A stretch of 64,000 nucleotides of DNA from Rufibacter immobilis (GTDB lineage: Bacteria > Bacteroidota > Bacteroidia > Cytophagales > Hymenobacteraceae): positions 434,001 to 498,000 of the forward strand of contig NZ_RJJE01000001.1 of the NCBI RefSeq assembly GCF_003721565.1, given 5' to 3'. Below are positions 339 through 61,624 of this stretch, piece after piece (position 1 is the stretch's first letter; every line of letters begins with the position of its first letter). Both the position numbers and the translations under genes were made by a program. Under the pieces are notes generated by a model. It saw only the letters and a list, made by a program, of their open reading frames with translations. It searched no databases and was not told the DNA's origin.

Positions 339-375
339 CGTTTAGAGCCTGTTTTTCCGAAATTTGGGCTAAAAC
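339..375. repeat. palindromic intergenic repeat, copy 1 (degenerate)
   Basis: CGTTTAGAGCCTGTTTTTCC followed by a decayed right arm (GGGCTAAAAC). It lies between the start of porZ and the end of the UbiA-type gene, and is one of the most degenerate copies. Confidence 0.7.
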
Positions 376-427
376 ACAGCAGTTATCTCCTTTGCCGGAA
401 ACTCAGAACACCTCGTTTCGGCAAAGC

Positions 428-1276
428 TTAATGCAGCACGAGCATAGAACAGATGCCCGTGAGCATGATGACCTTACAAAGCCAGCTAAGATGGGTGAAC
501 TCTCTTTTCCTGTCGGCGAAGAAGAGTTGCCGTACCAGCACCAGCGTAGGCAGCACCACGCCCACAAAGAGATACCAGACAAACTGCGGTTCATGCTGGC
601 GCTCCAGCATCACAAAGCCCGTAAAAACCAGGAACAGCGCCAGCAGCAGATAGAGCACCCATTTGGTTTTAGGAATGCCTGCCACAATGGGCAAGGTTCG
701 GCACTGGAAAGAGGCATCGCCGCGCACATCTTCCATGTCTTTGATGATCTCGCGCACCAGTGAAATGAGAAACGCGAACATACCATAGGCCCAGGCCGCT
801 TTAGATGGCTGCCCCGCCTGTAACGGCACCACCAGCACCATGGCCGCCGAGAGCAGGGCAATGGTCACATTCCCTATCAGAGGGCGCTTCTTGAACTGGG
901 CAGAATACCCCCACAGCAGCAACGCCACCCCCAGCAGCACTAACGCAATGCGCCAGCCCAGCAGCAAGCCTAACACCACACCGGTGGCAGAGAGGTAGAG
1001 ATGGATCATCATGGCTTTGCGCCGGGTAAGGGTTTTGCCCACCACTACCCGTTCGGGCTTGTTGATGCGGTCAATCTTGAGGTCATAGTAATCATTGATG
1101 ATGTACCCCGCCGCCGCCACGCAGATAGTAGCCAGCAACAGCACCCCAAACGGCCATGACAGTGACTGCGCCAGGGAACGCTCCGGGAACACCAGGAACT
1201 TCCGGACCAGCACCTGCGCCAGCAGCATGATAACTAAATTAGGAACCCTTACCAGGGAGAGAAACTGCTTCACCAC
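428..1276 (-). CDS. UbiA-family prenyltransferase (geranylgeranylglycerol-phosphate geranylgeranyltransferase-like)
   Basis: This is a 282-residue polytopic membrane protein with about eight hydrophobic segments. Both Asp-rich motifs of the UbiA superfamily are visible: NDYYDLKID at residues 61-69 and DMEDVRGD at about 180-187. They bind the Mg2+-diphosphate of the prenyl donor. Bacteroidota homologues of this size, encoded near a KdsC-like HAD protein and a DUF2520 protein, are usually annotated as geranylgeranylglycerol-phosphate geranylgeranyltransferases, but the substrate cannot be read from the sequence. Other members of the family prenylate quinones or haem. It is on the same strand as kdsC and the DUF2520 gene, separated from them by the cold-shock gene and its terminator, so it probably has its own promoter. 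Confidence 0.85.
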   Translation of the reverse strand: MVKQFLSLVRVPNLVIMLLAQVLVRKFLVFPERSLAQSLSWPFGVLLLATICVAAAGYIINDYYDLKIDRINKPERVVVGKTLTRRKAMMIHLYLSATGVVLGLLLGWRIALVLLGVALLLWGYSAQFKKRPLIGNVTIALLSAAMVLVVPLQAGQPSKAAWAYGMFAFLISLVREIIKDMEDVRGDASFQCRTLPIVAGIPKTKWVLYLLLALFLVFTGFVMLERQHEPQFVWYLFVGVVLPTLVLVRQLFFADRKREFTHLSWLCKVIMLTGICSMLVLH

Positions 1277-1320
1277 TACACAAAGGAAAGCGGAAGTTAC
1301 GTTTAAATTACCACCTATGA

Positions 1321-1349
1321 AAAAAGCCCCTGGGGTGCAGGGGCTTTTG
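1321..1349 (-). terminator. intrinsic terminator of the cold-shock gene
   Basis: Read on the minus strand, AAAGCCCCTG-CACCC-CAGGGGCTTTTTT forms a GC-rich hairpin followed by a T run, about 40 bases past the stop codon of the cold-shock gene. Confidence 0.88.
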
Positions 1350-2262: not shown

Positions 2263-2274
2263 AGGTATATGTTG

Positions 2275-3808: not shown

Positions 3809-3847
3809 GCGTTTAGCAGCCGTTTTTCCGAAATCAGCCTCCAAACA
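3809..3847. repeat. palindromic intergenic repeat, copy 3 (right arm decayed)
   Basis: The left arm GCGTTTAGCAGCCGTTTTTC is intact and the right arm is degenerate (AGCCTCCAAAC). It lies between ccmF and the DUF2520 gene. Confidence 0.8.
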
Positions 3848-7192: not shown

Positions 7193-7232
7193 CCGTTTAG
7201 GGCCTCTTTTTCCAAAAACAGCCCCTAAACAG
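7193..7232. repeat. palindromic intergenic repeat, copy 4
   Basis: CCGTTTAGGGCCTCTTTTTC - CAAAAACAGCCCCTAAACAG. It is moderately conserved, and lies between ccmE and ccmD. Confidence 0.85.
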
Positions 7233-9141: not shown

Positions 9142-9178
9142 GCGTTTAGCGCCTCTTTTTCTGAAAACTGCTTTAAAG
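9142..9178. repeat. palindromic intergenic repeat, copy 5 (right arm decayed)
   Basis: GCGTTTAGCGCCTCTTTTTC is intact and the right arm (GAAAACTGCTTTAAAG) is decayed. Confidence 0.8.
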
Positions 9179-9254
9179 TAAATCTCAGCGGCACGTCCTT
9201 CCATGCACCCTTCCACAGCATAAGCAGCTTCCCTGGGCAGGCATCTAACTTGTT

Positions 9255-9293
9255 GCGTTTAGGGGCTCTTTTTCTGAAAACAGCCCCTAAACG
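9255..9293. repeat. palindromic intergenic repeat, copy 6
   Basis: GCGTTTAGGGGCTCTTTTTC - TG - AAAACAGCCCCTAAACG. It is well conserved and lies about 110 bases from copy 5. Confidence 0.9.
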
Positions 9294-14351: not shown

Positions 14352-14391
14352 CCGTTTAGCGGCCGTTTTTCCAAAAACTGGCCTAAAACAG
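14352..14391. repeat. palindromic intergenic repeat, copy 7
   Basis: CCGTTTAGCGGCCGTTTTTC - CAAAAACTGGCCTAAAACAG. It lies between moxR and the Spy-like gene. Confidence 0.85.
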
Positions 14392-15861: not shown

Positions 15862-16415
15862 AGAAGGTTATTTTGAGGCAACATATTCTTAAGAAATAAA
15901 CCTATGCTGGGAGTTTGCGTTTAGCGCCTCTTTTTTGAAAAAGAGCCGCTAAACGGATTCAGTAACTCTTTAATAGAAAATCAAGGCCATAGGTCACGTA
16001 CCAATAAAGCTTAATAATTAAATATAATTTCTACTATTATAAATAGCATCACAAAAATTATAACATTTCTAATAAACCAATTCCACATCGTTACCTCTTT
16101 CCCCATAGATTTCTCTTCTATTCAGGTATTTTTAGCCATTTGCCAAACAGCTCACATAGCCTCTTGATTGCTAATTACTTAATCAAATCTCGATTATTTC
16201 ACCCATTCATCGGGTGAAGTTACCTGTTGAACGAATATTCTTACGCTCAACGGAACTTATTGCACATTTTTGACCTGTGCTAAGCAACTAAGCATCAGCA
16301 CCTATAACCTTGTACATAGCCTAAATCTAATACCAGATTTATCCTTAGAGAACGGCTGATCATTCCTGTGAGCTTAAATCCCAGATTGTTAGAGAACACT
16401 AGTAAAAAAAAGTAT
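15862..16415. other. 554-base AT-rich divergent intergenic region
   Basis: It holds repeat copy 8 and the promoter of the giant surface-protein gene. Two short palindromes could be operators: TGATT...AATCA (about 16165-16185) and TTCACCC-ATTCATC-GGGTGAA (16198-16218). No RNA gene is recognised. Confidence 0.5.
15917..15956. repeat. palindromic intergenic repeat, copy 8
   Basis: GCGTTTAGCGCCTCTTTTTT - GAAAAAGAGCCGCTAAACGG, with one mismatch in 19 paired positions. It lies between divergent genes. Confidence 0.92.
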
Positions 16416-19400
16416 ATGAAACAAAAATTACTCTTGTCCTTCTTTGCTTTGCTTCTACTCCCTCTCACCATGTTTGGTGAGGGATCAAAGCAGCTCACTC
16501 CCAACAGGTCTACGGCTGGGTTGACAGATCCAGCCAATGACAAGGTAGGTTACCTGGCCCATGATGCCAACTTTCCAAGTGCCTCTGGCGTAGCCATTAC
16601 TTCGCTTAGCTTTCTGAAACCGGCTGGCTTTAGCCGGAACGGGGCTACCTTCTCGGCAGATCACCGGTTGTTGATTAGGGTAAAAAACGGGGAGCGGTTA
16701 ATGTATGGGGTTCGCAGGGCCATCCATGACCAAACCACCTCTAACCAGGGAGATTTGGTTATAACTGTTAGGTATGCGGCGTCCAGCTCAGACGTTGCGG
16801 GTACTATTGCCCGGCAGACTACCCTTCTCAGAAACCAGAGCTCCACCAGGCAAATGTTGCTGAACACCAACCAGGCAGGGGTAATTGCCACTCCCGCTCA
16901 GGCGTTGGCAGGCCCAACGTTCACCCAAAGCGGCACCACCCGCAACTCTGGCGGTTACACCCCATTGTTAATAACCAACAATACTGGCGCAGACAGAGAT
17001 TATTGGGTTGAGTTCACTCAGGTGGGAGAGGCCAACATGTCTGACGGCCAATTGTTCTCTGTATATGATTTATGGGATTTCACGGTCATTGACGGGACGG
17101 GCACAGAGAAACCGGGCCGTATGCGCAGCAAATTATGGTCTTTCTCAGCGGGCGGCACCAATAACGTTTTCTCCAAAGACTTTAACATGTATCCGCTGAT
17201 TCCCAGCGAAGACCAACTTGACAGATATTTTGTAAAAGAGATAGAGTTAGCGGGTATTGCCCCGCAGAACTTCTTCCGCTTTGTGACCAACCGCTATGGC
17301 TCTACTTCTGCCACCGGAAGAACCACTGACGCTGAAAGAAGAAAAAGCCAGGGCGCACAGACAGATTACCCGGAGTTGTTCAACTTCGTGAATGACCCAG
17401 ACCCTGCCATTTGGCCAAGTGCCACGGCCCCTACCTTTACTGTAGATGTAAAATCCGGCTGTAACACCGCTACCAACGGAGGTAAATCTACCTTTAACCT
17501 GAACACCTCAGAAAGCAGCACCTTTGTGGTCTTGATCAACCTAAACGGAGTAGCCGGTTACCAACCGGGCACAGCTGATGTGTTGCTGGAGTCTACCGGC
17601 ACCAAAGGAGCCCGTACCGTGGAGTGGAACGGTTTGAACGGCCTCAACCAAATTGTAGCCAAGAACACCACTATCAATTACTTCTTCCGGAACAACAGCT
17701 CCCCCATCCATTTCCCGGTATGGGATGCCGAAGCCAACGCAGACGGTTTCAGGGTACAGGATGTTAGGCCAGTAGCCGGTTCTAACTATGACGGTCTCCT
17801 TTTCTGGGATGACTCTAACTTACCTACTTCCTCATTCCCTTCCCCACAGTCTGAGCTTTTTGGTGCCGTTTCTACCAATGGCGTACACCGCTGGGGCTCT
17901 GCCACCACCTCTGCCGGTGACCTGAAAACCGTGAATACCTGGACCTATGGCTATACAGGCTCTTCTACCCAATCAGCCACCTTCACGTACGACTGTAGCG
18001 CAGATGTGGCCGTTACCAATACTGCCGCCGCTGCTCCCTATACCATTGGCAAACCCTTTACCTATACCGTAACGGCTACCAATAATGGTCCTATCACGGC
18101 TAGCAATGTACAGGTAACAGATAAATTAGACCTTACCAAACTGGAATTTGTAAGCTCATCAGACGCGGCCAATTATAACACCAGCACTGGCATCTGGAAC
18201 ATTGGCGCCCTAGCCGTTGGAGCGTCCAAGACACTGACTATTACGGCCAAACCGTTGGTTTTAGGCACTATTTCCACTACCGCCACTCAAACGCACACAG
18301 AGGTAGACAATGTAGCCTCCAATAACAGCGCCACAGCTTCCATCACCGTACAGGCTGCCGCAGATATTGAAGTAAAGAACACAACTACCAAGACTACCTA
18401 TAGCAACGGTGATCTGGTAACCTTTACCGTTACCGCTAAAAACCTGGGGCCTAATGCCGCTACAGGCGTGGTGGTAACAGATAAGTTGCCTGCGGGCTTA
18501 ACGTTGGAAGGTGCTGCCCCTGCGGGATATGATGCCGCTACCGGTAACTGGACAGTGGGTGCATTAGCGGTGAACGAAACCAAAACCTTAACCTTAACGG
18601 CAAGAGCAACTGCTCTAGGCACAATCACTACAACCGCCGATCTTGGCAGCAGAACAGGCTTTGAGTTGGATGAAAACGCCGGAAACAATACCTCTTCTGT
18701 CACCATCAATGTGTCACCTTCTGCAGATGTGGCCGTGACCAACGTAGTGTCCAACACAACACCTAATCAGAACAGCGCTATCACGTTCACCTTCAGAGCC
18801 ATCAACAACGGCCCTAACAACGCTACCAACGTAGTTCTGAGCAGCCCTATTCCGGCAGGCCTTACTCCTACAGCCTTTACCCCCAGCACGGGTTCTGTGT
18901 CTGTGGTGTCAGGTGTCGCGTACTGGACAGTAGGAACCATTCAGCCATCTGCCACGCAAACATTGGTTGTTACCGCGGTTCCAACCTTAGTAGGTACTTT
19001 TACCCTTACCGCTACGCAGACGCATACAGAGAATGACAATGTAGCAACAAACAACAGCGCTTCGCAGACCATTACGGTGCGGCCAACCGCAGATGTTGCC
19101 GTGACCAACACTGTCTCTGCCCCGGCAGGAACAACGTATGAGAATGACGAAGAAGTTACCTATACAGTAGTTGTCAGAAACAACGGGCCAAGCACCGCTA
19201 CCAATGTAGTAGTCACAGATCAATTCCCTACTTCTCTGCAGATTTCGCCAGCCCAAGTAACCACCGGAACCGTAACCACCACTGCAAGTACCGGAAAAGT
19301 AGAGTGGACTATCCCTTCTATGGCGAGCGGAGCTACAGCAACGCTAACGGTGAAAGCGATCATCAAAGAAAGTGCGGTAATCACTACTACCGCCAGCCAG

Positions 19401-23542: not shown

Positions 23543-23581
23543 GCGTTTAGCGGCTGTTTTTGCAAAAATAGCTTAAAAACG
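23543..23581. repeat. palindromic intergenic repeat, copy 9 (right arm decayed)
   Basis: GCGTTTAGCGGCTGTTTTTG - CAAAAATAGCTTAAAAACG. It lies between two divergent genes. Confidence 0.82.
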
Positions 23582-25520: not shown

Positions 25521-25571
25521 GTAGGGCAACCATAGCCCAAGCCTTTCTCATTGATTCAACTACACCCTAGC

Positions 25572-36022: not shown

Positions 36023-36027
36023 GTACC

Positions 36028-37434: not shown

Positions 37435-37442
37435 TCAAAGCA

Positions 37443-37486
37443 TTCTGTTTAGGGGCTATTTTTCTGAAAATAGCCCCTAAACAGAA
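37443..37486. repeat. palindromic intergenic repeat, copy 14 (outer GCG/CGC replaced on both arms)
   Basis: Perfect 20-base arms, TTCTGTTTAGGGGCTATTTT and complement, with TCTG at the centre. The usual GCG/CGC is changed to CTG/CAG on both arms, and the inner CTG/CAG to CTA/TAG. Confidence 0.95.
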
Positions 37487-37600
37487 AATATTACCGCAAG
37501 TCTCTCCCTGTAAACCCACATGATCCTTCCCCAAAGGGAACAGCACTTTTTTAACAGCTTTCACTTCCTTCCAGGAAGTTTTTGCTCAAACTTTTCATTT

Positions 37601-37641
37601 GCGTTTTAGGCCTGTTTTAGGAAAAACAGCCGCTAATCGCA
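37601..37641. repeat. palindromic intergenic repeat, copy 15
   Basis: GCGTTTTAGGCCTGTTTTAG - GAAAAACAGCCGCTAATCGC. Several mismatches. It lies 41 bases before the EEP hydrolase start. Confidence 0.85.
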
Positions 37642-37681
37642 ACATCAACCAAGGCTTTCCCCAACCATCCCTTTCCACCCC

Positions 37682-38593: not shown

Positions 38594-39077
38594 CCCATAT
38601 AGCCAAGCAGATAAAAGATACTGAGCATAATCGGCTAACATTCAGGCATACCTGGTTTGAATCACCTAACACATAAAGCCTGATCCCTGAATCTGGAATT
38701 GCCGCTACCCCAGATTGACTTCTACTGAAAGTATGCCCGGCCTATCTACCTAGTGCGTCTTCCCTTACCACAGCACTTTATTGCCCCTATACTCTTAACA
38801 ACTGCTCTACTCAAAGCTTTTCGCCTTTTAATTCACTTTCAAGATTTAATTTTCTTACTTAAGTTAATTTACATATACTTTACTTTTGTTTAATTTAATT
38901 AAATTTGATTTATTTGAATAACCCGCGCCCTACACTACTACTTCATCAAATTCTAGAAAAGAAAAGCCTTACAAGTAAGAATTTGACAACCCGGCAATGC
39001 GAAGGCATACTCAGGCAGAAAGCTTGAAGAGAGAATTATCCTTGTCCTTGTTATTTCCTGACCTTCACCCCTGTCAC
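38594..39077. other. 484-base intergenic region before the phosphodiesterase/kinase operon
   Basis: It is mostly non-coding, with a strongly AT-rich block at 38830-38920 carrying the shared promoter element. The open frame extending the next gene back to 38997 lacks a signal-peptide start and is rejected. No palindromic repeat and no RNA is seen. Confidence 0.6.
38885..38916 (+). promoter_or_regulatory. shared promoter/operator element, phosphodiesterase operon copy
   Basis: TTTGTTTAATTTAATTAAAT then TTGATTTATTTG. It aligns without gaps to the copies at 27965 and 34587, with -33-like TTTG, -7-like TTTATTTG and the TTTAA...TTAAATTT spacer in common. Confidence 0.55.
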
Positions 39078-40418: not shown

Positions 40419-40457
40419 ATAGAAGTAAATCAATTAGTAAGCCTAAACAGAAAAGAC

Positions 40458-41774: not shown

Positions 41775-41849
41775 ACCCTCACCCCAGGCAGGTTCGCTTC
41801 CCCCAGCCGGCCTTTCCAGAACCATTCATTAGAGACTTAAACTACGCTT

Positions 41850-42851
41850 ATGAGAATTTTAATAACCGCCCCTTACCACGAGAAAGCACAGCAAGTGTTG
41901 CAGGAAACCTTTGGCGAAGTCATCTACCGCCCCTGGAAACCGCATGGCCGCGCTTATAACGAAGAAGAACTCATCGGGCTGCTAGAGGAAACCCAAGCCG
42001 ACGCGCTCATCACCGAGCATGACCATGTCACCAAGGAAGTCATCAACGCATATCCAGACTTGCAATTTATAGGCGTCTGCCGCGGCACCCCTTCTAACGT
42101 GGCCGTTGAGACCGCCACTGAAAATGATATTCCGGTGTTCCATACTCCCGCCCGCAACGCCCAGGCCGTGGCCGAAATGTTCGTGGCCAACGTGATCACC
42201 TTCATGCGGAATACCATAGCCGGCTGCGCCTGGCTGGAGGGCGAAAACTGGGAAGCCGGGGCACATACGTCTTACCTACAGTTTAAAGGCAGCGAACTTG
42301 CCGGAAAAACCATTGGCATGGTCGGCTTCGGGGCTATTGGCCAGCGCATTGCCAACATGGTGAAATGCTTCCCCTGCACCATCCAGTTCTATGACCCTTA
42401 CACCGAGTCGCCGGACCCAGATTACCAGAAAGTAAGTTTGGAAGAAGTCTTCGCTTCCAGCGATATTGTGTCGGTGCATTTACCGGTTACCCCCCAAACC
42501 ACGGGCATGATAGATGAAAGCCTTATTTCGCTCATGAAACCAGAAGCCATCTTCGTGAATACCGCCCGCGCCGTGGTGGTGAAACGCGAGGCCCTGCTAG
42601 ACGCTCTGGAGAACAACCGCATCAAAGGCGCCATCCTGGACGTGTTTGACCATGAGCCACCAGATGAAGTTGACTATAAAATCATTCACCACCCGCACGT
42701 ACTGGCTACCCCGCACATTGCCGGGGCCACGTTTGAGGTGGAAGACCACCACGCCTATATTATGAATGACGCGTTGGTAGCCTGGTTCATCAAGGAGGAC
42801 AAGAACATTAAACAATTGGCAAACAAAGAAATATTGGCCGTTAAAAGCTAA
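41850..42851 (+). CDS. D-isomer-specific 2-hydroxyacid dehydrogenase
   Basis: A 333-residue NAD(P)-dependent dehydrogenase. The nucleotide-binding loop is VGFGAIGQRIA (about 158-168). The catalytic triad is visible as Arg in NTARA (about 236), Glu in DVFDHEPP (about 265) and His in TPHIAGAT (about 289). Family members reduce 2-oxoacids or oxidise D-2-hydroxyacids, including phosphoglycerate and erythronate-4-phosphate. The gene ends 6 bases before the first kinase gene, so it belongs to one pathway with the two FGGY kinases. That suggests the pathway contains a sugar-acid step rather than simple polyol oxidation. Confidence 0.92.
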   Translation: MRILITAPYHEKAQQVLQETFGEVIYRPWKPHGRAYNEEELIGLLEETQADALITEHDHVTKEVINAYPDLQFIGVCRGTPSNVAVETATENDIPVFHTPARNAQAVAEMFVANVITFMRNTIAGCAWLEGENWEAGAHTSYLQFKGSELAGKTIGMVGFGAIGQRIANMVKCFPCTIQFYDPYTESPDPDYQKVSLEEVFASSDIVSVHLPVTPQTTGMIDESLISLMKPEAIFVNTARAVVVKREALLDALENNRIKGAILDVFDHEPPDEVDYKIIHHPHVLATPHIAGATFEVEDHHAYIMNDALVAWFIKEDKNIKQLANKEILAVKS

Positions 42852-42857
42852 GCGAAC

Positions 42858-44318
42858 ATGGCTGCACAGGAAGCATTTATTATTGTAGACATTGGCACGG
42901 GAAACGTACGCGTGGCCGTGGCTGCCAAAAACGGTGAGGTGCTGAGCGTAGAGCGGGACAACATGCCCTACCAAACCGATGCGCTGTACCCCAACTCCAT
43001 CTTCTTTGATCCCAACCACTTGTGGAGCGTCATTACCAAGCTGGCTATAACCGCTCTGAATAATGCGCCGGAGGTAGAGGTAAAAGCCCTCACGGCCACC
43101 AGCCAGCGCGAGGGCATTGTCCTGATTGGCCATGACGGCGGCTCTCTCATAGGGCTGCCCAACATTGACCACCGGGGCCGCGAATGGGACTTCATCATGC
43201 AGGATAAAAGCTATATCTATGAGCTGGCGGGTCGTTACCCAACCTCGCTGTTCTCGGCGTTAAAGCTGGTAGGCGTACGGGAGCGGCGGCCGGAGATCTG
43301 GGAGCAGACCCGCACGTTTTTGAGCATCAGTGACTGGGCGCAGTACATGCTCAGCGGTGTGGCGCGTTATGAACATTCTCAGGCCTCTGAAACGCTGCTC
43401 TATGATGTGGCCCGCAAATCCTGGTCTCCTGAGCTGTGCGCTATCTTTGACATAGATCCCATGCTGCTTTCTCCATTGGGGGACTCGGGCACTGTGTTAG
43501 GCACTATTACCCCAGCGGCGGCGGCGGCTTTCCAGATTTCGCCGGAGGCACAGGTCATCATCGGCGGCGCCGATACCCAATTGGCCGTAAAAGGTACGCA
43601 GCCTGAACTAGACGATGTGGTGATAGTTTCCGGCACAACCACGCCCATCTTTAAGCTGGTGAATGAGTACATCACAGACACCCGGGAGCGCTCCTGGACC
43701 AACCGGCACATAGATGAACATACTCTTGCCGTGGAAACCAACGCGGGGGTCACCGGCCTCAACTACCAGCGCCTGAAAGAGATTTTCTACCCTAATGAAA
43801 GCTACGAGGTTATTGAACAGGAACTGGCTCAGGTACAGGAAGCGTGCTGCGTGGCCTCTCTGGGTTCCTTGTTAGCCGATGAGAAAGGCCCTATCACCAA
43901 AGGCGGCTTCATCTTTCCGGCTCCGGTAACTCACACGTTAACCCGGGCGCACTTCGTGTGGGCCACCTTATGGGACATTGCCTGCAGCATCAAGGAGAAC
44001 TTCAACTCGTTGCATGACATCTCAGCGGTGGAGCAGGACTACGTGTGGGCCTGTGGTGGCGGGTTCCAGAGCCAACTGCTGCGCCAGTTCATTGCCGATT
44101 TGCTCAACAAGAAAGTCTATCTGCGCGAAAACTACCGTCAGGCCACGGTGGTAGGCGGCGCTCTTATCTGTAACGAGGCCCTGGAAGAAACCAGCTACGC
44201 GCCCGCTCCGCCTATGGTGGTAGAACCACAGGAAGACAGCCGTTACCTTGCCCTTTATGAGGAGTGGAAACGGACGCGCCAAACGTTCAAACACATCTGT
44301 GAGGAGGCGGTAGTATGA
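42858..44318 (+). CDS. FGGY-family carbohydrate kinase 1 (LsrK-like)
   Basis: A 486-residue kinase. The N-terminal phosphate-binding motif is DIGTGNVRV (11-19) and the second lobe has ADTQLAVKG and CGGGFQSQLLRQF. TATSQREGIVLI resembles autoinducer-2 kinase LsrK and its relatives rather than xylulokinase. It overlaps the next kinase gene by four bases (ATGA). Two different FGGY kinases side by side suggest either two substrates or a two-subunit enzyme. Confidence 0.88.
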   Translation: MAAQEAFIIVDIGTGNVRVAVAAKNGEVLSVERDNMPYQTDALYPNSIFFDPNHLWSVITKLAITALNNAPEVEVKALTATSQREGIVLIGHDGGSLIGLPNIDHRGREWDFIMQDKSYIYELAGRYPTSLFSALKLVGVRERRPEIWEQTRTFLSISDWAQYMLSGVARYEHSQASETLLYDVARKSWSPELCAIFDIDPMLLSPLGDSGTVLGTITPAAAAAFQISPEAQVIIGGADTQLAVKGTQPELDDVVIVSGTTTPIFKLVNEYITDTRERSWTNRHIDEHTLAVETNAGVTGLNYQRLKEIFYPNESYEVIEQELAQVQEACCVASLGSLLADEKGPITKGGFIFPAPVTHTLTRAHFVWATLWDIACSIKENFNSLHDISAVEQDYVWACGGGFQSQLLRQFIADLLNKKVYLRENYRQATVVGGALICNEALEETSYAPAPPMVVEPQEDSRYLALYEEWKRTRQTFKHICEEAVV

Positions 44319-45772
44319 CCGCCCCTTACTTTTTAGGCATCGACATTGGTACCCAGGGTGCCCGCGTGGTGCTGCTGGACGTGACCGGAGAACAACTGGG
44401 CAGCTCTGAAGAAGCCTTCCCGCTCAGCAACCAGTCCAGGGAAGAGCAATCGCCTACGGAGTGGTGGGCGGCGTGCAAGCGTTCGCTCAAAGCCTTACTG
44501 GCGGAGGTAAACGGCCAAATAAATCTGGCAGAGATCAAAGCGGTGTCGGTGACGTCTACTTCCGGCACGGTGATTCCTTTAGATGCCCGGCACCAACCCC
44601 TGCACAATGCCCTCATGTACAGCGACGGTCGCTCGGCGGCGGAAGGGAAACTTTGCAAAAGCATGGCCGAGGCTTACCATCCCAGTGGTTATACCGGGTT
44701 CAACGCTTCCAGCGGCTTGTCTAAGATGGTCTGGTTTTCGAATCAATTTCCGGAAAAGGCTGCCCAAATAGCCCATTGGGTACATGCCACTGACTTTATC
44801 ATTGGTCAACTGAGTGGCGTTTGGGCCGTGACCGATTATACCAACGCCCTCAAATCTGGCTATGACGTGCAGGAAGGTTTCTGGCCAGCCTATGTCTATG
44901 AACAGCTGCCTATCCAAAAAGAATGGCTGCCTACCGTGGTTCCTTCCGGTACACCCATTGGTACGTTAGACTCGGCCCTGGCCGAAGAACTGGGTCTTTC
45001 TCCAGCCCTGCAGGTAGTGGCGGGCATGACCGATGGCTGCGCCTCTCAGGTGGCCTCCGGAGCCGTGAAATTGGGCGACTGGAATACCACCATCGGGACT
45101 ACTTTAGTGGTGAAAGGCGTGACCCGGCAGCAAATCAACGACCCCGAAGACCGGCTCTATAGCCACCGTCACCCCGAAGGTTACTGGATGCCGGGCGGGG
45201 CCAGCAACACCGGCGCCGACTGGGTCACCAAAGAGTTTCAGGAAGATTTAGCCCAGTTAAACGAACAAGCTGCGGCCATCATTCCTTCGGGGCATTTGGC
45301 GTATCCCTTGCGCCAGCAGGGTGAGCGGTTCCCGTTCATCGCGCCGCAGGCCCGTAGCTTTGAGCCGGAAGGTTTGTCAAGGGCCGAACGGTTTGTGGCT
45401 AACATGGAAGGCGTGGCTTACGTGGAGAAATACGCGTTTGACCTTATTCAGCAGCTTTCCGGCGAAGAGGTGAAGGCCGTGTACACCGCCGGCGGCGCCA
45501 GCAACAGCGAGGCCTGGCTTACCATCAGGAGTAACGTGCTCAACCTGCCCATTTACAAAATGCGGCACGTGACCGGGGCCGTGGGTGCCGCCATTCTGGC
45601 CGCGTCTAAAACACATTTCACCTCCATTGAAGAAGCCACCCAAGCCTTAACCCAAATAGAAAAAGAAATCCATCCTACTCCTGCCCTGAGCCAGGCCTAC
45701 GCCAAAAGTTACGCCGAATTTTTGCGCATCTTGCAGGAGAAAGGATACATCACTGATCACCAATATGCTTAA
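44315..45772 (+). CDS. FGGY-family carbohydrate kinase 2 (xylulokinase/ribulokinase-like)
   Basis: A 485-residue kinase. The phosphate-binding motif is GIDIGTQGARVV (8-19). The ATP-lobe motifs are GMTDGCASQVASG and YTAGGASNSEAW. SVTSTSGTVIPLD marks the sugar-binding region. Translation is coupled to kinase 1 through the ATGA overlap and to the histidine phosphatase through an 8-base overlap. The substrate is probably a ketopentose, aldotetrose or related sugar acid. Confidence 0.88.
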   Translation: MTAPYFLGIDIGTQGARVVLLDVTGEQLGSSEEAFPLSNQSREEQSPTEWWAACKRSLKALLAEVNGQINLAEIKAVSVTSTSGTVIPLDARHQPLHNALMYSDGRSAAEGKLCKSMAEAYHPSGYTGFNASSGLSKMVWFSNQFPEKAAQIAHWVHATDFIIGQLSGVWAVTDYTNALKSGYDVQEGFWPAYVYEQLPIQKEWLPTVVPSGTPIGTLDSALAEELGLSPALQVVAGMTDGCASQVASGAVKLGDWNTTIGTTLVVKGVTRQQINDPEDRLYSHRHPEGYWMPGGASNTGADWVTKEFQEDLAQLNEQAAAIIPSGHLAYPLRQQGERFPFIAPQARSFEPEGLSRAERFVANMEGVAYVEKYAFDLIQQLSGEEVKAVYTAGGASNSEAWLTIRSNVLNLPIYKMRHVTGAVGAAILAASKTHFTSIEEATQALTQIEKEIHPTPALSQAYAKSYAEFLRILQEKGYITDHQYA

Positions 45773-46364
45773 CGTTTATTTACTGCGCCACGGCCAGACC
45801 GCCTGGAACGCCGACGGCAACCGGTACTGTGGCCGCACTGATTTACCACTTACCCCCAAAGGCCTGGAGCAAGCCCAACTCGCCGCCGCCCAACTCCAGA
45901 ACGTGACGTTTGATGCGGTGTACTCTTCGCCGCTGGAGCGGGCCTATAAAACGGCGCAACTGGCCAGCGGCAACCTCCCCGTGACCACAGATGAACGCCT
46001 CATTGAAGCGGATTTCGGGTTATGGGAAGGAAAACGCAAGGAAGAGTTCATCCCGGAGAACGAAGCGCTTTGGCAGGACTGGTGCCAGGACCCCATGCAG
46101 ACCAAAGCGGGCGGCACCGGCGAAACGGCAGGTGAGGTCATTGCCCGGGTGGATGATTTCTATATGTCGCTGGTGAAGAAACACCCTTCGGGGAACGTGC
46201 TCACGGTGGCGCACAATGGCGTGAACCGGTTTTACCTGGCCTACAAACTGGGCATGCCCGTGCGCAATTACCGCAAGTTCGTGATCGACAATTCTTCGGT
46301 GACTATGTTTGAACTGGATGCCGCGGGCGAGCTTTCCCTGGTGCACCTCAACAGCAAACTGTAG
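45765..46364 (+). CDS. histidine phosphatase (phosphoglycerate mutase-like)
   Basis: A 199-residue enzyme. LLRHGQTAWN (6-15) holds the phosphorylated His and Arg. The second His is in TVAHNGVNRF, and Glu in IEADFGLWEGK is the acid. It resembles GpmB/CobC-type broad sugar-phosphate phosphatases. It starts inside the end of kinase 2, so its level is tied to the kinases. It may remove a phosphate from a pathway intermediate or serve as a detoxifying phosphatase. Confidence 0.9.
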   Translation: MLNVYLLRHGQTAWNADGNRYCGRTDLPLTPKGLEQAQLAAAQLQNVTFDAVYSSPLERAYKTAQLASGNLPVTTDERLIEADFGLWEGKRKEEFIPENEALWQDWCQDPMQTKAGGTGETAGEVIARVDDFYMSLVKKHPSGNVLTVAHNGVNRFYLAYKLGMPVRNYRKFVIDNSSVTMFELDAAGELSLVHLNSKL

Positions 46365-46403
46365 CTGGATTGCCTACGGCCACTGGCGGCACAACCCATC
46401 TAT

Positions 46404-46445
46404 TGCGTTTAGGGGCTGATTTTCAGAAAACAGCCTCTAAACGCA
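46404..46445. repeat. palindromic intergenic repeat, copy 16
   Basis: TGCGTTTAGGGGCTGATTTT - CAG - AAAACAGCCTCTAAACGCA, with two mismatches. Confidence 0.92.
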
Positions 46446-46472
46446 TTCTGGGCAAGTATCGGCTTGTGATCA

Positions 46473-46511
46473 CGGTTTGGGGCTATTTTCAGAAAAACAG
46501 CCGCTAAACAG
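46473..46511. repeat. palindromic intergenic repeat, copy 17
   Basis: CGGTTTGGGGCTATTTTC - AGAAAAACAGCCGCTAAACAG. The left end is decayed. Confidence 0.82.
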
Positions 46512-46601
46512 AAATTCGGCCACCCATAACTCACACGTGAATGGCTGCAAATGAGAGAACAACAGAGAACTCAAAACAGCTTACCGGCTAGAATATGCAC
46601 C

Positions 46602-46649
46602 AGTTGCGTTTAGGGGCTGTTTTTCAGAAAACAGCCCCTAAACGCAACT
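46602..46649. repeat. palindromic intergenic repeat, copy 18 (perfect 22-base arms)
   Basis: AGTTGCGTTTAGGGGCTGTT.. and complement, centre TCAG, with no mismatch. Outer AGTT/AACT is specific to this copy. Confidence 0.96.
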
Positions 46650-46738
46650 CGGCAGGAATTCATCTTCTAGTCAAATCTGCCAGAGAGGTGAAGTCTTCTT
46701 GGCATCTTTCTTACCTTACCGTCTAACCCCAGACCTTT

Positions 46739-47731
46739 ATGCGATTATTCAAGCCATCTTTTCGCCTTCAAGTTTCTGCCGTTGGGGCAGGCCTCGCGCT
46801 TCTGCTGTTGGGTAACCCCAGCCTGGCGCAGCAAAAAGAGCCTTTGCAGAACCTCCACATCAAGAACACCAAAGAGCTGCACCAGTTTTTCAAGTACACG
46901 GGCAAAGACGTGCCCATTTTGAGCGGACACCGGGGCAGCATTGTGAAAGGTTTCCCGGAGAATTCCATACCGTCGTTTGAGGAGACGCTGCGGCACACGC
47001 CCGCCTTCTTTGAGATTGACCCGCGCCTCACCAAAGACAGCGTGATTGTACTCATGCATGACGCTACTCTGGACCGCACCACCACCGGCACCGGCAAAGT
47101 GGCTGACTACACCTGGGCAGAACTACAGAAACTCAAACTCAAAGACGTGGAAGGCAACGTGACCGAATTCGGCATCCCTACCCTAGACGAGGTCATCAAA
47201 TGGAGCAAAGGCAAAACCGTGGTGAACCTGGACAAAAAAGACGTGCCGCTGGCCATGACCGTGAAAAAGATCAAGGAACACAACGCTGCCGCCCACGTCA
47301 TGGTCACCGTGCACAACGCCAAGCAGGCCAAATACTACTATGACCAGATAGAGGGCATCATGATGTCGGCGTTTGTGAAGACGAAGAAAGAGCTGGAGTC
47401 TTACGAGAAAGCGGGCGTGCCGTGGAGCAGCATCATGGCCTACGTGGGGCCCGAGGTAAAACCCGAAACCAAAGAAGTCATTGATCTGCTGCACGCCCGT
47501 GGCGTGATGTGCATGGTTTCGGCGGCGCCTACCTATGACAAACTCCCGGACCCCGCCGCCCGCCGCACCGCCTACCAAGAAGTGTTCAAAGCCGGGGCCG
47601 ATGTGCTGGAATCTGATTTACCCATAGAAGCGGCCGCGGCCATCCAAACCCTGCTCCCGTCCAAAAGCGCGAAAGCCAAATTCTTCAACAGAGGTCCCAA
47701 AAAAGAGAAAAGCGTCCTGGTGCGGCAATAA
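46739..47731 (+). CDS. glycerophosphodiester phosphodiesterase family protein
   Basis: A 330-residue secreted protein with a signal peptide ending NPSLAQ. The GDPD TIM-barrel motifs are present: SGHRGS (about 60-65), PENSIPSFEETL, FFEIDPRLTKD with Glu and Asp metal ligands, and LMHDATLDRTTTG. These enzymes split glycerophosphodiesters into sn-glycerol-3-phosphate and an alcohol in the periplasm. It is on the same strand as the kinase operon, before the PafA-type phosphatase, which could strip phosphate from the product. The C-terminal tail KKEKSVLVRQ is unusual but short. Confidence 0.92.
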   Translation: MRLFKPSFRLQVSAVGAGLALLLLGNPSLAQQKEPLQNLHIKNTKELHQFFKYTGKDVPILSGHRGSIVKGFPENSIPSFEETLRHTPAFFEIDPRLTKDSVIVLMHDATLDRTTTGTGKVADYTWAELQKLKLKDVEGNVTEFGIPTLDEVIKWSKGKTVVNLDKKDVPLAMTVKKIKEHNAAAHVMVTVHNAKQAKYYYDQIEGIMMSAFVKTKKELESYEKAGVPWSSIMAYVGPEVKPETKEVIDLLHARGVMCMVSAAPTYDKLPDPAARRTAYQEVFKAGADVLESDLPIEAAAAIQTLLPSKSAKAKFFNRGPKKEKSVLVRQ

Positions 47732-47782
47732 CCCCGCTCTTAAAGAATGGCCTTCCGGCCGATTTCAATTCTGATGTTCCCC

Positions 47783-47844
47783 CACGCCAATTCCTGTTTT
47801 TGAGCTGTTTTCAGAAAAACGGCCCCTAAACAGGAATTGGCGTG
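47783..47844. repeat. palindromic intergenic repeat, copy 19 (decayed core, perfect 17-base outer arms)
   Basis: The outer arms CACGCCAATTCCTGTTT / complement (47783-47799 and 47828-47844) are perfect and unique. The inner core (TTGAGCTGTTTTC / GAAAAACGGCCCCTA) has diverged. It lies between the GDPD and PafA-type genes. Confidence 0.92.
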
Positions 47845-48011
47845 ACTGGGGCAAAGCATTCGCCGTGGCGCTTTCATAGTCGCTTGCTTACAAGTATCCT
47901 TTCATATTGTTCTCACTTGTTTCAATTCTTTACTATTTTGTCCTTACTTTTAAAAAATTTAAAGTTAAGCTCTTCATCTGCCTCCTAACAGACAGGCCAA
48001 CACCCTCTTGA

Positions 48012-49670
48012 ATGAATTCCCTCATGAGAAAATTTGTAGTACTCTTTACCCTTCTCCTGCACCTGGGCTACCAGGCCACCTCAGCCCCCAAAACCAGCAA
48101 AGACAAAGTAGACCGGCCAAAATTGGTGGTGGGCATTGTCATTGACCAGATGCGCTGGGACTACCTGTACCGCTTCAATGACCGCTACGGCAAAGACGGC
48201 TTTAAGCGCCTGTTGCGCGAAGGCTTCTCCTGTGAGAACCACTACATCAACTACCTGCCTTCGGCCACGGCCGTAGGGCACTCCTCTATTTACACCGGTT
48301 CGGTGCCCGGCGTGCATGGCATTACCGGCAACAGCTGGGTAGACCAACTCACCGGCAAAACCGTGTACTGCACCGAAGACAACACGGTACAGACCGTGGG
48401 CAGCGCCGCCACCACCGAAGGGCAGATGTCACCGCGCAACCTGCTGGCCTCTACCATCACCGACGAGCTGCGCATGGCCACCAACAAGCAGTCTAAAGTG
48501 GTGGGCGTTTCCCTGAAAGACCGCGCCTCCATCCTGCCCGCCGGGCACATGGCCAACGGTGCTTTTTGGTTCGATGATGAATCGGGTAACTTTATCACCA
48601 GCACGTTCTACATGCCTACGCTGCCGGAGTGGGTGCAGAACTTCAACAAGCAGCAGCGCGCCGCCGAGTTCATGAAACAACCCTGGCAGACGCTGTACCC
48701 CATTGGCACTTACAAAAACAGCGACGAAGACGCCAAAGCCTATGAGGGCCGCCTGCCCGGCGAAACCACCACTACCTTCCCGCATAACCTACCGGCCGCT
48801 TACGCCAAGAAAAAAGACGCTTTCCGCACCACCCCCCACGGCAATACCTTTATTCTGGACTTCGCTTCGGCGGCGGTGAACGGCTACAACATGGGTCAGG
48901 GCGAGGCCACCGATTTCCTGACCATCAACTGCGCCTCCACAGACTACGTGGGCCACATGTTTGGGCCAAACTCCATTGAGATTGAAGACACCTACCTGCG
49001 CCTGGACCAGGATCTGGCCAAGTTCTTCAAGTTCCTGGACAGCAAAGTAGGCAAAGGGCAGTACCTGGTGTTCCTCACCGCCGACCACGGCGTGGGCCAC
49101 GCCATTGGCTATTCCCAGGAAAACAAGCTGAACGGCGGCAATTGGAACTCAAAGCCCGTGCAGGCCGAGCTGAACAAAATGCTGGCCTCCACCTTCGGGG
49201 CCGAGAATCTGGTGCGCTCCATGTCCAGCTATCAGGTGCACTTTGACTGGGACCAGATAGCCGCCAAGAAACTGGACATTGACCTCATCAAAAAAGCCGT
49301 GATTGCCAAGCTGCAGATGGAGCCCGAAGTGATGTACGCCGTAGACATGGGCAACGCCAACGCGCATTTGGTGCCGTTTACCATTAGAGAGCAAATTGCC
49401 AACAGCTACAACCCCAAACGCACCGGCAGCATCCAGATCATCCTGAAACCTGGTTACGTGGCCACTACCTCCAAAACCGGAGCCAGCCACGGCGCCTGGA
49501 ACCCCTATGACACTCACCTGCCGCTCCTGTTCATGGGCTGGAACATCAAAGCGGGCAGCACCAATATACCTACTTACATGACCGATGTGGCACCTACCCT
49601 AGCAGCCCTGCTGCACATTCAGACGCCAAATGGCACCGTAGGCAAGCCCATTACGGCGGTGGTGAAGTAA
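48012..49670 (+). CDS. pafA: PafA-type alkaline phosphatase
   Basis: A secreted phosphatase of 552 residues (548 from the second ATG at 48024). It has a signal peptide and the alkaline phosphatase superfamily core: VIDQMRWDY, nucleophile Thr in PSATAVGHSSIYTG, GNSWVD, the PafA-specific SLKDRASILPAGH with Lys and Arg, STDYVGHMFGP, TADHGVGHA and ASHGAW. PafA is the phosphate-insensitive, broad phosphomonoesterase of Bacteroidota. With the GDPD and NPP genes upstream it would complete release of phosphate from diesters. No Pho-box-like repeat is obvious upstream; the leader has an AT-rich block at 47935-47970. Confidence 0.92.
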   Translation: MNSLMRKFVVLFTLLLHLGYQATSAPKTSKDKVDRPKLVVGIVIDQMRWDYLYRFNDRYGKDGFKRLLREGFSCENHYINYLPSATAVGHSSIYTGSVPGVHGITGNSWVDQLTGKTVYCTEDNTVQTVGSAATTEGQMSPRNLLASTITDELRMATNKQSKVVGVSLKDRASILPAGHMANGAFWFDDESGNFITSTFYMPTLPEWVQNFNKQQRAAEFMKQPWQTLYPIGTYKNSDEDAKAYEGRLPGETTTTFPHNLPAAYAKKKDAFRTTPHGNTFILDFASAAVNGYNMGQGEATDFLTINCASTDYVGHMFGPNSIEIEDTYLRLDQDLAKFFKFLDSKVGKGQYLVFLTADHGVGHAIGYSQENKLNGGNWNSKPVQAELNKMLASTFGAENLVRSMSSYQVHFDWDQIAAKKLDIDLIKKAVIAKLQMEPEVMYAVDMGNANAHLVPFTIREQIANSYNPKRTGSIQIILKPGYVATTSKTGASHGAWNPYDTHLPLLFMGWNIKAGSTNIPTYMTDVAPTLAALLHIQTPNGTVGKPITAVVK

Positions 49671-49673
49671 ACA

Positions 49674-49695
49674 CCTAAATACTAGAGTATTTAGG
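49674..49695. terminator. short palindrome after pafA
   Basis: CCTAAATACT-AG-AGTATTTAGG starts 3 bases past the pafA stop and is followed within 3 bases by repeat copy 20. It may be a weak terminator. Confidence 0.45.
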
Positions 49696-49697
49696 CC

Positions 49698-49751
49698 GAG
49701 GGTGCGTTTAGGGGCTGTTTTTTTGGAAAAACAGCCCCTAAACGCACCCTC
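49698..49751. repeat. palindromic intergenic repeat, copy 20
   Basis: GAGGGTGCGTTTAGGGGCTG.. and complement, about 24-base perfect arms. Outer GAGGGT/ACCCTC is specific to this copy. It lies between convergent genes. Confidence 0.95.
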
Positions 49752-49761
49752 TTTGTTTTGG

Positions 49762-50217
49762 CTATTCTCCAGCCGGCTTTATCATTTTGATATGGTCAAT
49801 GCCGTCCTCGTCATACACGTCACTGGACTGCACAAACCCGAAGCGCTCGTAGAATTTCTTGGCGTACAGCTGCGCCCCAATCTTAATCGGCCCGGGGCCG
49901 AACAGACGGTAGGTTTCCTCAATAGCTTTCTGCACCAACTGGTAGCCTACACCGGTGCCGCGCACGGCCGCGCTGGTGATGATGCGCCCAATGGAAAGCT
50001 CTGGGTAAGAAACTCCCGCCGGCACCAGCCGGGCATAGGCCTCCAGCGTGGCGCCTCGGTAAAACAGCAAGTGCTGGCATTGGTTGTCCAGTCCGTCGGG
50101 GTCCAGGAACACGCAGTTCTGTTCCACCACAAATACCGCGCTCCTAAGCTGCAAAAGATCATAGAGCTCCTGCGGCGTGAGCTCCTCAAAAGGTTTGGTA
50201 ATGATGTCAAATTCCAT
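49762..50217 (-). CDS. GNAT acetyltransferase, ElaA-like
   Basis: A 151-residue acetyltransferase. LYDLLQLRSAVFVVEQNCVF at the start is typical of the ElaA branch. The acetyl-CoA loop is VRGTGVGYQLV, with RIITSAAV before it. The acceptor is unknown. It is alone on the minus strand, converging with pafA and divergent from the transketolase genes. Confidence 0.9.
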   Translation of the reverse strand: MEFDIITKPFEELTPQELYDLLQLRSAVFVVEQNCVFLDPDGLDNQCQHLLFYRGATLEAYARLVPAGVSYPELSIGRIITSAAVRGTGVGYQLVQKAIEETYRLFGPGPIKIGAQLYAKKFYERFGFVQSSDVYDEDGIDHIKMIKPAGE

Positions 50218-51384: not shown

Positions 51385-51428
51385 CTGCGTTTTAGGGCTC
51401 CTTTTCCAAAAACAGCCTTAAAACGCAG
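51385..51428. repeat. palindromic intergenic repeat, copy 21
   Basis: CTGCGTTTTAGGGCTCCTTT ... AAACAGCCTTAAAACGCAG. It lies between the two transketolase half genes. The outer CT/AG and the extra T/A are matched on both arms. Confidence 0.9.
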
Positions 51429-52445: not shown

Positions 52446-52497
52446 TCTGTTGGTTTTGCCTTCTTTTTGGAAAAAGACACCCTAAACAGAAAACAGA
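52446..52497. repeat. palindromic intergenic repeat, copy 22 (strongly decayed)
   Basis: TCTGTTGGTTTTGCCTTCTTTTTGG-type left side and GACACCCTAAACAGAAAACAGA right side. TCTGTT/AACAGA still pair at the ends. It is recognised mainly by position and the CCTAAAC remnant. Confidence 0.6.
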
Positions 52498-53283: not shown

Positions 53284-53331
53284 CATTGCGTTTCGGGGCC
53301 GTTTTTGGAAAAACGGCCCCGAAACGCAATG
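53284..53331. repeat. palindromic intergenic repeat, copy 23 (perfect 23-base arms, doubly substituted)
   Basis: CATTGCGTTTCGGGGCCGTT.. and complement, centre GG. The usual TTTAGGGG/CCCCTAAA is TTTCGGGG/CCCCGAAA here, a matched change on both arms. It lies between convergent genes. Confidence 0.97.
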
Positions 53332-55985: not shown

Positions 55986-56031
55986 TTTGCGTTTAGCGCC
56001 TCTTTTTGGAAAAACGGCCTCTAAACGCAAA
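55986..56031. repeat. palindromic intergenic repeat, copy 24
   Basis: TTTGCGTTTAGCGCCTCTTT.. / ..AAACGGCCTCTAAACGCAAA, with three mismatches in the core. It lies just upstream of the exonuclease gene. Confidence 0.92.
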
Positions 56032-60317: not shown

Positions 60318-60643
60318 ATTCCTTATTGAAGTCAGCTTAACGTTTATCCACTCCCGGCCAAACAACTCCTCCCCGTTTTACGGAAATAAAAATTATTCTA
60401 CACCGGCAAAACATCATTTTACAATTATAACAATAAGATTCATAAAATGTAATTATGACACTTAATTTAATTCTATGAGCTTACTCTATGACGGGAATCA
60501 GAACACCGCAACTATGGAAGTCACTACTTCTTAGGATAGTACAGGGATTGCTGTAACACAAATCGCGTTTAGGGGCCGTTTTTTGAAAAACAGCCCCTAA
60601 ACGCGATTTATACTTTCACGCAGCTTGCCACTGCCTTTTTTTG
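60318..60643 (-). promoter_or_regulatory. araBDA control region
   Basis: 326 bases with repeat copy 25 on the araR side and a very AT-rich block (60380-60475) next to araB. Two AATTATnAC motifs (60423-60431 and 60451-60459) spaced 28 bases apart lie in sequence of similar kind. They are candidate AraR sites, but I cannot match them to a known consensus. Confidence 0.5.
60560..60609. repeat. palindromic intergenic repeat, copy 25
   Basis: AAATCGCGTTTAGGGGCCGT.. / ..CAGCCCCTAAACGCGATTT, one G-T mismatch. Outer AAATC/GATTT is specific to this copy. Confidence 0.95.
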
Positions 60644-61351
60644 CTACAGCAGAAACTTCTCTGGGTTGGGAATGAACTTCAGGAAGGCCTGGAAGTTGTC
60701 GTAGTACTTTTCCTTATCCAGCTTAAAGTAGAACGCGCCTTTTCTGGAATTCTCTTTGTCCTTCTCCTTTTGCCGCACCAGCAGGTTGGTAGACAGTACT
60801 TTCCGGCTGAAGTTGCGTTTATCAAAGGTGGTGTCATAGAGCTTCTCATAGAGCGTCTGCAACTGCGGCAGGGTGAATTTCTCCGGGAGCAGCTCAAACA
60901 GGATGGGATGCAGCGCGGCCTTGTAGCGCAGCCGCATTTTGGCCATCTCCACCATTTGCTCATGGTCAAAGATTAGCTGCGGATGATCGCCTAGCATAAA
61001 CCACTCGGCGTGGTAGTCTGAGCTGAGCTGGGCTTGGTACTTCTGAATATCAATGAGGGCGAAATAAGGTACCGCAATGGTACGCTCCACGGGGTCACGG
61101 GTAGGTTCACTGAAGGCGGATATCTGCTCCAGGTACACCCCCTCCAGGCCGGTCAGTTGTTTCAGGACACGCTGGGCACCTACCTCCAGACTTTCATGGG
61201 GCTGAATAAAACCGCCCATGAGGCTCCATTTCTGCTTTTGGGGCGCAAATCCGCGCTGAATCAACAGCAGCTTGAAATTCTCCCCGTCAAAGCCAAATAT
61301 GATACAGTCAACCGCTACCAGAACCCGTGTCTGCCCCGAATATTTCATCAT
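60644..61351 (-). CDS. araR: Nudix-type transcriptional regulator of arabinose use
   Basis: A protein of about 235 residues: a Nudix-fold domain (about 8-140) followed by a winged helix at the C-terminus (about 150-235, with FTLPQLQTLYEKLYDTTFDKR, a 21-residue stretch from about 165, and FSRKVLSTNLL). The Nudix box is degenerate (GGFIQPHESLEVGAQ then RVLKQL, lacking the REUXEE acidic residues), so it should sense a ligand rather than hydrolyse. This is the architecture of the NrtR/AraR family, which in Bacteroides controls L-arabinose genes. Its place between araB and galM supports AraR. I start at ATG 61351; the frame is open to 61408. Confidence 0.9.
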   Translation of the reverse strand: MMKYSGQTRVLVAVDCIIFGFDGENFKLLLIQRGFAPQKQKWSLMGGFIQPHESLEVGAQRVLKQLTGLEGVYLEQISAFSEPTRDPVERTIAVPYFALIDIQKYQAQLSSDYHAEWFMLGDHPQLIFDHEQMVEMAKMRLRYKAALHPILFELLPEKFTLPQLQTLYEKLYDTTFDKRNFSRKVLSTNLLVRQKEKDKENSRKGAFYFKLDKEKYYDNFQAFLKFIPNPEKFLL

Positions 61352-61574
61352 TCCGCTGATATGTTTTGCACGGGGCAGCTCCCGTTCCAGGAAAAGTTTG
61401 CCGCCCATGCCGTTTCATCTCCACTCAAAGATAGCGGCCTTTCTCCTGTTTCTAAAAACGTGGAGGGAACCCGCTAATCTCGCAGCAAATAAAAGAATAG
61501 TAGGCAATTTACAAGCTTCCTGCCAAGCGCAACGGCAGATTTCGTTCCTGTGCATCTAAACCTGGCTAAAACAG

Positions 61575-61624
61575 CTTTTGCGTTTATGGGCTGTTTTTGG
61601 AAAAACGGCCCCTAAACGCAAAAG
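61575..61624. repeat. palindromic intergenic repeat, copy 26
   Basis: CTTTTGCGTTTATGGGCTGT.. / ..CGGCCCCTAAACGCAAAAG, two mismatches. Outer CTTTT/AAAAG is specific to this copy. Confidence 0.95.

Follow-up and report, generated by a model that had tools for sequence, protein, structure and literature searches.

Palindromes of the analysed stretch

The stretch of DNA analysed (the window, 64 kb) corresponds to positions 434001–498000 of contig C8 in the Rufibacter immobilis genome assembly (G000; 4.77 Mb, 17 contigs) and carries a dispersed family of short intergenic palindromes. Copies in 16 genomes of the genus, which we take as Rufibacter, follow the motif GTTT-N8-TTTT-N(3-5)-AAAA-N8-AAAC, with 16 fixed anchor positions, an eight-base interior in each arm and a linker. 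The anchor search yielded 17, 23, 27 and 29 window copies at no more than 0, 1, 2 and 3 anchor mismatches, versus 0, 0, 0 and 2 in the reversed window. The first-pass annotation had reported an intergenic family of at least 26 copies, and the count holds: 26 of the 27 copies with up to two mismatches, spanning positions 340 to 61617, lie outside called genes. The single in-gene copy (44734–44769, two anchor mismatches, asymmetric) is probably a chance match. Genes were called with our own script at a score above 20, and calls scoring 20 or less were dropped before the counts; one dropped call (46403–46507, score 13) would overlap two window copies if kept.

Exact anchors combined with fully symmetric interiors (arms 8/8) are found at 34393–34428, where 15 further flank bases are paired, at 37447–37482, at 46608–46643 and, in convergent gaps, at 49706–49743 (with a six-base linker) and 53290–53325. 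Exact-anchor copies with arms 7/8 occur at 2223–2258, at 9257–9292 and 15919–15954 (both in divergent gaps) and at 60567–60602 (seven paired flank bases); those with arms 6/8 lie at 7195–7230, at 26713–26748 (six paired flank bases, convergent gap) and at 61582–61617 (seven paired flank bases). Among the other copies with exact anchors, the interior is less regular at 47796–47831 (4/8, with 13 paired flank bases) and 55991–56026 (4/8), and asymmetric at 14354–14389 (3/8), 23545–23580 (3/8) and 52453–52487 (2/8). The last of these begins seven bases past a stop codon, and a separate terminator-like hairpin follows at about 52510. One anchor mismatch is present in the copies at 340–375 (asymmetric, arms 2/8), 3811–3846 (arms 4/8), 37603–37638, 46407–46442 (arms 7/8), 46474–46509 and 51389–51424. 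Decayed copies with two mismatches are located at 9144–9179 (arms 1/8), 25127–25162 and 25487–25521 (three-base linker). Perfect hairpins, described in the first-pass annotation, do exist, the copy at C1:502145 consisting of the core and 18 paired flank bases, but many copies are asymmetric.

In genome G005, the orthologous gaps also contain a copy for those at 2223, 51389, 53290, 55991, 60567 and 61582, and for the one at 7195 the copy is at the same end of the gap. The counterpart of the 23545 copy is degenerate, and the gap matching 15919 is without an exact copy. A 15-kb part of the window (34567–49839) is 95% identical to positions 220–15490 of contig C142 (locus L070) of genome G001, against an average of 83.5% between the two genomes in a syntenic stretch, and looks from the sequence like a recent transfer. 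All seven of its copies (37447, 37603, 46407, 46474, 46608, 47796 and 49706) are common to both genomes, and those in the G001 patch are mostly of the G000 type; the copy at 37447 shows a paired outer difference, CTG/CAG versus CCG/CGG in G001. The end of G001 contig C20 coincides with the palindrome at 34393–34428, and long palindromes may break short-read assemblies. Elsewhere in the window, positions 16386–22802 encode a protein of 2138 aa that has DUF11 repeats as well as a Por_Secre_tail sorting domain. No Rfam match was obtained within the window at gathering scores.

Motif, copy number and spread

The fuller consensus is about GTTT-H-n-n-G-n-n-Y-n-TTTT-n4-AAAA-n-R-n-n-C-n-n-D-AAAC, where H, Y, R and D are IUPAC symbols. 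The commonest interior differs between genomes, being AGGGGCTG in G000, T[T/C/G]GG[C/G]CTG in G001, T[G/A][G/A]G[C/G]C[T/C]G in G005 and TTGGCCTG in both G013 and G006. The family is dispersed and not confined to the window. Across the whole G000 genome, 944 forward and 959 reverse arms match with no more than two mismatches, the reversed control having none in either orientation, and there are 1138 copies with exact anchors. In 800 kb of contig C1 the copies increase from 222 with exact anchors to 316 when one mismatch is allowed and 367 when two are; the reversed sequence has 0, 0 and 5. Exact copies number 1191 in G001, 998 in G005, 772 in G009, 272 in G006 and 10 in G012, and all 16 genus genomes contain the exact motif (10–1191 copies each). 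By comparison, 134 other genomes of the family have 0–1 exact copies each and 294 other genomes of the class have 0–2, G020 and G025 being counted in both samples. A scan of named genomes with an exact consensus copy found at least 27 loci, and the matches listed all belong to Rufibacter species or Sabulibacter ruber. G012 was considered as a lineage without the family, which was ruled out, as copies are present there at shared sites. In some G012 copies G replaces the first T of TTTT, and a pattern written for that variant matched only 20; the G012 form may be partly missed by the exact motif. Among the papers searched, none joins Rufibacter with intergenic repeats or Hymenobacter with repetitive extragenic palindromes (REP). 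Rufibacter papers mentioning palindromes or inverted repeats have, judging by their titles, topics elsewhere, and the word “Rufibacter” is absent from the main text of PMC12306157 and PMC13155455.

The closest known elements are the REP and bacterial interspersed mosaic elements (BIME), which an extract of PMC3733652 describes as short palindromes tagged with GTAG/CGTC, with some families of thousands of units, situated mainly in same-strand and convergent gaps. The Rufibacter element is likewise a short, intergenic, high-copy palindrome. It differs from the elements of that extract as a 36-base dyad with internal T/A anchors that is free of the GTAG/CGTC tag. The base composition at the element end shows neither GTAG nor CGTC, in agreement with the first-pass annotation on the lack of a classical REP head; no fixed tetranucleotide precedes GTTT, and the composition there is G/C followed by C/T.

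Copies are rare in genes. At no more than one mismatch, 13 of 347 copies in G000, 10 of 260 in G001 and 4 of 114 in G005 fall within called genes, where called coding sequence amounts to 77–85% of the DNA; an arm-similarity search of 864 kb of G000 placed 9 of 315 copies within called genes. An 864-kb search for arms resembling the G000 consensus found none without a partner among 343 with no more than two mismatches and one among 484 with no more than three, under a lenient partner test allowing up to three of eight anchor mismatches and five linker lengths. Uptake sequences are common within genes, and these counts bear on the suggestion of a DNA uptake sequence (DUS/USS) with species dialects. 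About 1000 copies and genome-specific dialects do recall the uptake sequences of Neisseriaceae, as far as these are described in part of PMC3630211, where at least 1000 copies and species-specific dialects are likewise a feature, and the patch of G001 with mostly G000-type copies would also suit uptake. The Rufibacter element differs from the sequences in that part of the source in being a 36-base dyad whose arms do not occur singly, not one non-palindromic word, and in being rare in genes. An uptake role is very improbable.

Palindromic form, genome-wide occurrence and protein-like constraint would fit a site for nucleoid occlusion or for organising the terminus, like those of Noc, SlmA or MatP. 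The spread of the copies is even, however: ten of ten spaced 10-kb samples of G005, including DNA near the change of skew sign, contained 1–4 exact copies each. We regard a site of this kind as having very little probability; the nucleoid signal proposed in the first-pass annotation is still conceivable, though not in a form limited to the terminus or barred from it.

Inheritance at shared sites

All 16 genomes share synteny over a 20-kb stretch of G005. One gap of this stretch has the element 6–9 bases past the stop codon in every one of the 16. The G002 copy at this site is degenerate, with 2 of 14 anchors lost, and paired differences are seen among species. Anchors are retained at a site whose interior is asymmetric in six species. 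Between G013 and G006, which are 88% identical in the syntenic stretch and 84% across aligned DNA, 88 orthologous gaps were compared: 39 had a copy in both genomes, 45 in neither and 4 were discordant, so that 39 of 43 occupied gaps are shared. One of the four discordant gaps has a copy in both genomes, with three mismatches. The G000/G001 comparison outside the 95% patch (94 gaps, partner at no more than three mismatches) gave 46 gaps with copies in both, 37 with none and 11 discordant, and shared gaps thus make up 46 of 57 occupied ones, or 42 of 57 at two partner mismatches. Of 30 single-copy pairs, 16 have their copies within 15 bases of the same place, where 26% would be expected. With exact anchors and the patch included, 101 G000/G001 gaps comprised 24 with both copies, 52 with neither and 18 and 7 discordant; for G000/G005 (20 gaps, exact anchors) the figures were 6 both, 9 neither and 5 discordant.

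Conservation within the element is graded. Across alignments, which cover 36 of 84 elements, identity is 0.931 at the anchors, 0.861 in the interior and 0.722 in the linker, with 0.755 at flank positions 1–8 and 0.825 at flank positions 16–60, the latter including genes. The exact-anchor and reverse-direction sets likewise have the highest identity at the anchors and the lowest in the linker.

The first-pass annotation had described copies that look like a family still spreading, possibly a RAYT-like or other mobilised element (RAYT, REP-associated tyrosine transposase). High copy number, palindromic and intergenic character and a bias to 3′ ends as in REPs agree with a REP-like non-autonomous element copied by a RAYT/Y1 transposase, RAYT-like genes are found in 15 of the 16 genus genomes, the near-perfect copies look young, and 11 of 57 occupied G000/G001 gaps are discordant. 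The sharing of sites argues the other way, with only 4 of 43 occupied G013/G006 gaps discordant and one site occupied genus-wide. The search for RAYT-like genes had no hit in G006, whose single contig carries 272 exact copies, whereas G012, with 5–6 RAYT-like matches, has 10. Copies are no more frequent next to RAYT-like genes than next to control genes: they occur downstream at 4 of 9 testable loci versus 309 of 675 control genes, and upstream at 3 of 9 versus 249 of 675, an open reading frame having been obtained for 9 of the 21 loci. No clean empty site was seen among aligned discordant gaps, the longer discordant gaps lying outside the alignments. The claim of ongoing spread is not supported, most occupied gaps being shared, and we consider mobilisation of a REP-like element by RAYT improbable; a REP-like spread before the radiation of the genus is still compatible with the data. 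With respect to the REP/BIME extract cited above, the Rufibacter element further differs in showing no sign of RAYT dependence and in the retention of its sites across species. A Y1/IS200-like (RAYT-like) gene with PF01797 is situated at G000:C1:452655–453197 (L009, 1432–1977).

Two further sites in the shared stretches were recorded. At G005 locus L240:2987–3320 and its orthologs, two copies flank about 180–510 bases in 11 of 16 genomes, and the DNA between the two copies often includes inverted-repeat stretches (TCATCCTGAAAGGA... or CCCCCTTTGAAGGGGG...); the other five genomes have one copy and lack the inverted-repeat stretch. At L240:6533–6778 and its orthologs, a block ACCAAAAAATGGGAATAACTTTGG ahead of the next gene differs little between the 15 genomes compared there and is a possible leader or regulatory element.

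Constraint on DNA and change of the arms

Copies are found in convergent, divergent and same-strand gaps, as the first-pass annotation had noted, but not alike in all three: the density in G000 is 4.42 per kb of gap in convergent, 2.30 in same-strand and 1.10 in divergent gaps. Among G000 gaps of at least 100 bases, 60 of 67 convergent, 169 of 259 same-strand and 41 of 90 divergent gaps are occupied, and same-strand gaps under 40 bases contain none (0/143). Convergent gaps of at least 100 bases are occupied in 41 of 51 cases in G001 and 17 of 26 in G005. In G000 same-strand gaps the median distance is 47 bases past the stop codon and 123 bases ahead of the next start.

Location past stop codons, enrichment in convergent gaps and paired changes could indicate an RNA-level element, either a terminator or an mRNA 3′-end hairpin. 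There is also a moderate T excess (0.30–0.47) 9–13 bases beyond the stem. No T run adjoins the stem, as the first-pass annotation had correctly stated in setting the copies apart from standard terminators, and the GC-rich stem with an immediate T run, kept as RNA, that marks an intrinsic terminator was not found. Terminator-like hairpins are about equally frequent in gaps that have the element and in those that lack it (convergent, 65 of 124 versus 14 of 29; same-strand, 52 of 310 versus 30 of 268), and in 39 of 52 same-strand gaps having both, the terminator comes first.

The strand symmetry of mispairs bears directly on this question. Of 909 elements from the 16 genomes, 590 are within same-strand gaps, and isolated mispairs were counted on the sense strand of those with a four-base linker; antisense or separate transcripts are beyond the reach of this count. 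The stems of these elements have 150 G-U, 149 A-C and 347 other mispairs, and their flanks have 58, 78 and 119. The control set, 110 terminator-like hairpins from same-strand gaps of the same genomes, has 32 G-U, 4 A-C and 10 other mispairs; its definition was changed before use, the first one having yielded one hairpin. G-U equals A-C in the sense strand, which opposes the RNA end-protecting hairpin proposed in the first-pass annotation. GT pairing is often reported for REP stems in the extract of PMC3733652, from which the Rufibacter element thus differs in having no G-U enrichment. Given also the negative Rfam result, an RNA-level function is quite unlikely.

The stems nevertheless change in pairs. 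In 37 orthologous pairs, 25 of the 32 base pairs changed on both sides remain complementary, against one third by chance. Palindromes reach up to 18 bases into unique flanks; at least six flank bases are paired in 49 of 238 exact-anchor copies of G000, 11 of 65 of G001 and 12 of 76 of G005. The mean number of paired flank bases in G000 is 4.9 in 95 symmetric copies and 0.8 in 74 asymmetric ones. Template switching is a known process that fits the paired changes and the flank palindromes, and we infer its action here. According to part of PMC8794818, it makes perfect stems and paired changes by mutation alone in RNA genes; the Rufibacter case differs from what is described there as a dispersed DNA motif with fixed anchors, with switching deduced from the overall pattern, not event by event. 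Perfect stems as long as about 27 bp also occur in some ordinary terminators of G000 same-strand gaps, and the stem-making process may be general. Insertion of the element into loops of existing terminators was rejected, as long flank stems are often without a T run; those at C1:796694, C1:298514 and C1:693933 do end in T runs. No empty hairpin was seen in aligned orthologous gaps.

Interiors have changed lineage-wide. A stands first in the interior of 74% of G000 arms, and 81% of G001 arms have T there. At 24 same-place G000/G001 pairs (within 30 bases, 48 arms), the 35 A arms of G000 correspond to T in 32 cases, C in 3 and A in none; of the remaining arms, 8 have T in both genomes, 2 go from T to A, 2 from C to T and 1 from T to C. 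The two arms of a G000 copy are nearly independent at this base: among 347 copies AA, AT and TT number 195, 106 and 17, where independence expects about 190, 108 and 15. The independence is incomplete. A first covariation test, on G000 alone, gave no pairing signal across most of the core; in the anchor-based set, covariation between the arms exceeded that of shuffled ones in the flanks and at several of the outer interior positions, with next to none at the innermost.

The main rival explanation is molecular drive: conversion, either from copy to copy or from arm to arm, would keep the palindromes alike, no protein would be bound, and the conservation would be due to biased conversion. It would account for the lineage-wide change of interiors at shared sites, for the arm covariation at outer interior positions and for the fact that orthologous copies (mean distance 6.74 of 16 positions, 19 pairs) are little closer than random cross-genome copies (7.62; within genomes, 5.77 and 5.59). 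Conversion of whole palindromes should tie the arms together, however, whereas in G000 the first interior base of one arm says little about that of the other, and the anchors persist as the interiors diverge.

The reading we favour, tentatively and at close to even confidence, is a vertically kept dyad DNA site for a putative genus-specific DNA-binding protein, located between transcription units, with arms redrawn by template switching. Judged from sequence, the copies combine half-site symmetry with conserved positions of the kind expected for protein contacts, from which we infer protein binding of the dyad. In this reading a protein acting as a dimer or tetramer would recognise each copy in the form of duplex or cruciform DNA; the anchors would be its fixed contacts, the interior would be freer, and reading would proceed largely half by half. 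Were the half-site preference of the reader protein to shift, the dispersed sites would follow lineage-wide, and the observed half-site changes may track such shifts. The hairpin would provoke template switching during replication, by which one arm, and sometimes the flank, is copied onto the other. A more specific proposal, possible but doubtful, is that a genus-specific architectural protein reads the 36-base dyad at about 1000 transcription-unit boundaries, that individual lineages underwent a switch of its half-site preference, which hundreds of ancient, vertically kept sites then followed, largely arm by arm, and that template switching redraws unread positions and flanks as perfect palindromes. 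The most likely role of the dyad site would be that of a regularly spaced anchoring or topological site (supercoil handling or boundary) between transcription units. This is the least certain part and is suggested because of the placement of the copies and the behaviour of REP/BIME; in E. coli, REP/BIME sites bind gyrase and other proteins.

Several observations weigh against the protein-read dyad. It is a demanding task for point mutation to adapt about 1000 sites, the same appearance would result from conversion between copies one arm at a time, and no binding protein was identified. Binding alone leaves the flank palindromes unexplained, the position bias equally fits purging of copies that disturb promoters, the T excess downstream could hint at termination, and 11 of the 57 occupied gaps in G000/G001 are discordant. 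In a second copy of the 16-genome gap, 7 of 11 species keep an A-type left arm, so the interior change is no clean sweep. The arms also retain some linkage at the first interior base, where matches among exact-anchor copies exceed shuffled ones (G000, 0.73 versus 0.65, z 3.8; G001, z 3.7; G005, z 4.9). This residual linkage lowered our confidence in the dyad site to somewhat short of even and left the switch of an architectural protein rather doubtful, and it raised conversion to a rival that is unlikely but to be taken seriously.

The family is shown to be a dispersed bacterial palindrome of long standing, which hardly moves in one species pair and is under constraint at the level of DNA, and the strand-symmetry test separates a function in DNA from one in sense RNA. 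The 16 genomes, with differing interiors at shared sites, offer a setting for asking how about 1000 dispersed sites change together, whether through a protein or through a copying process.

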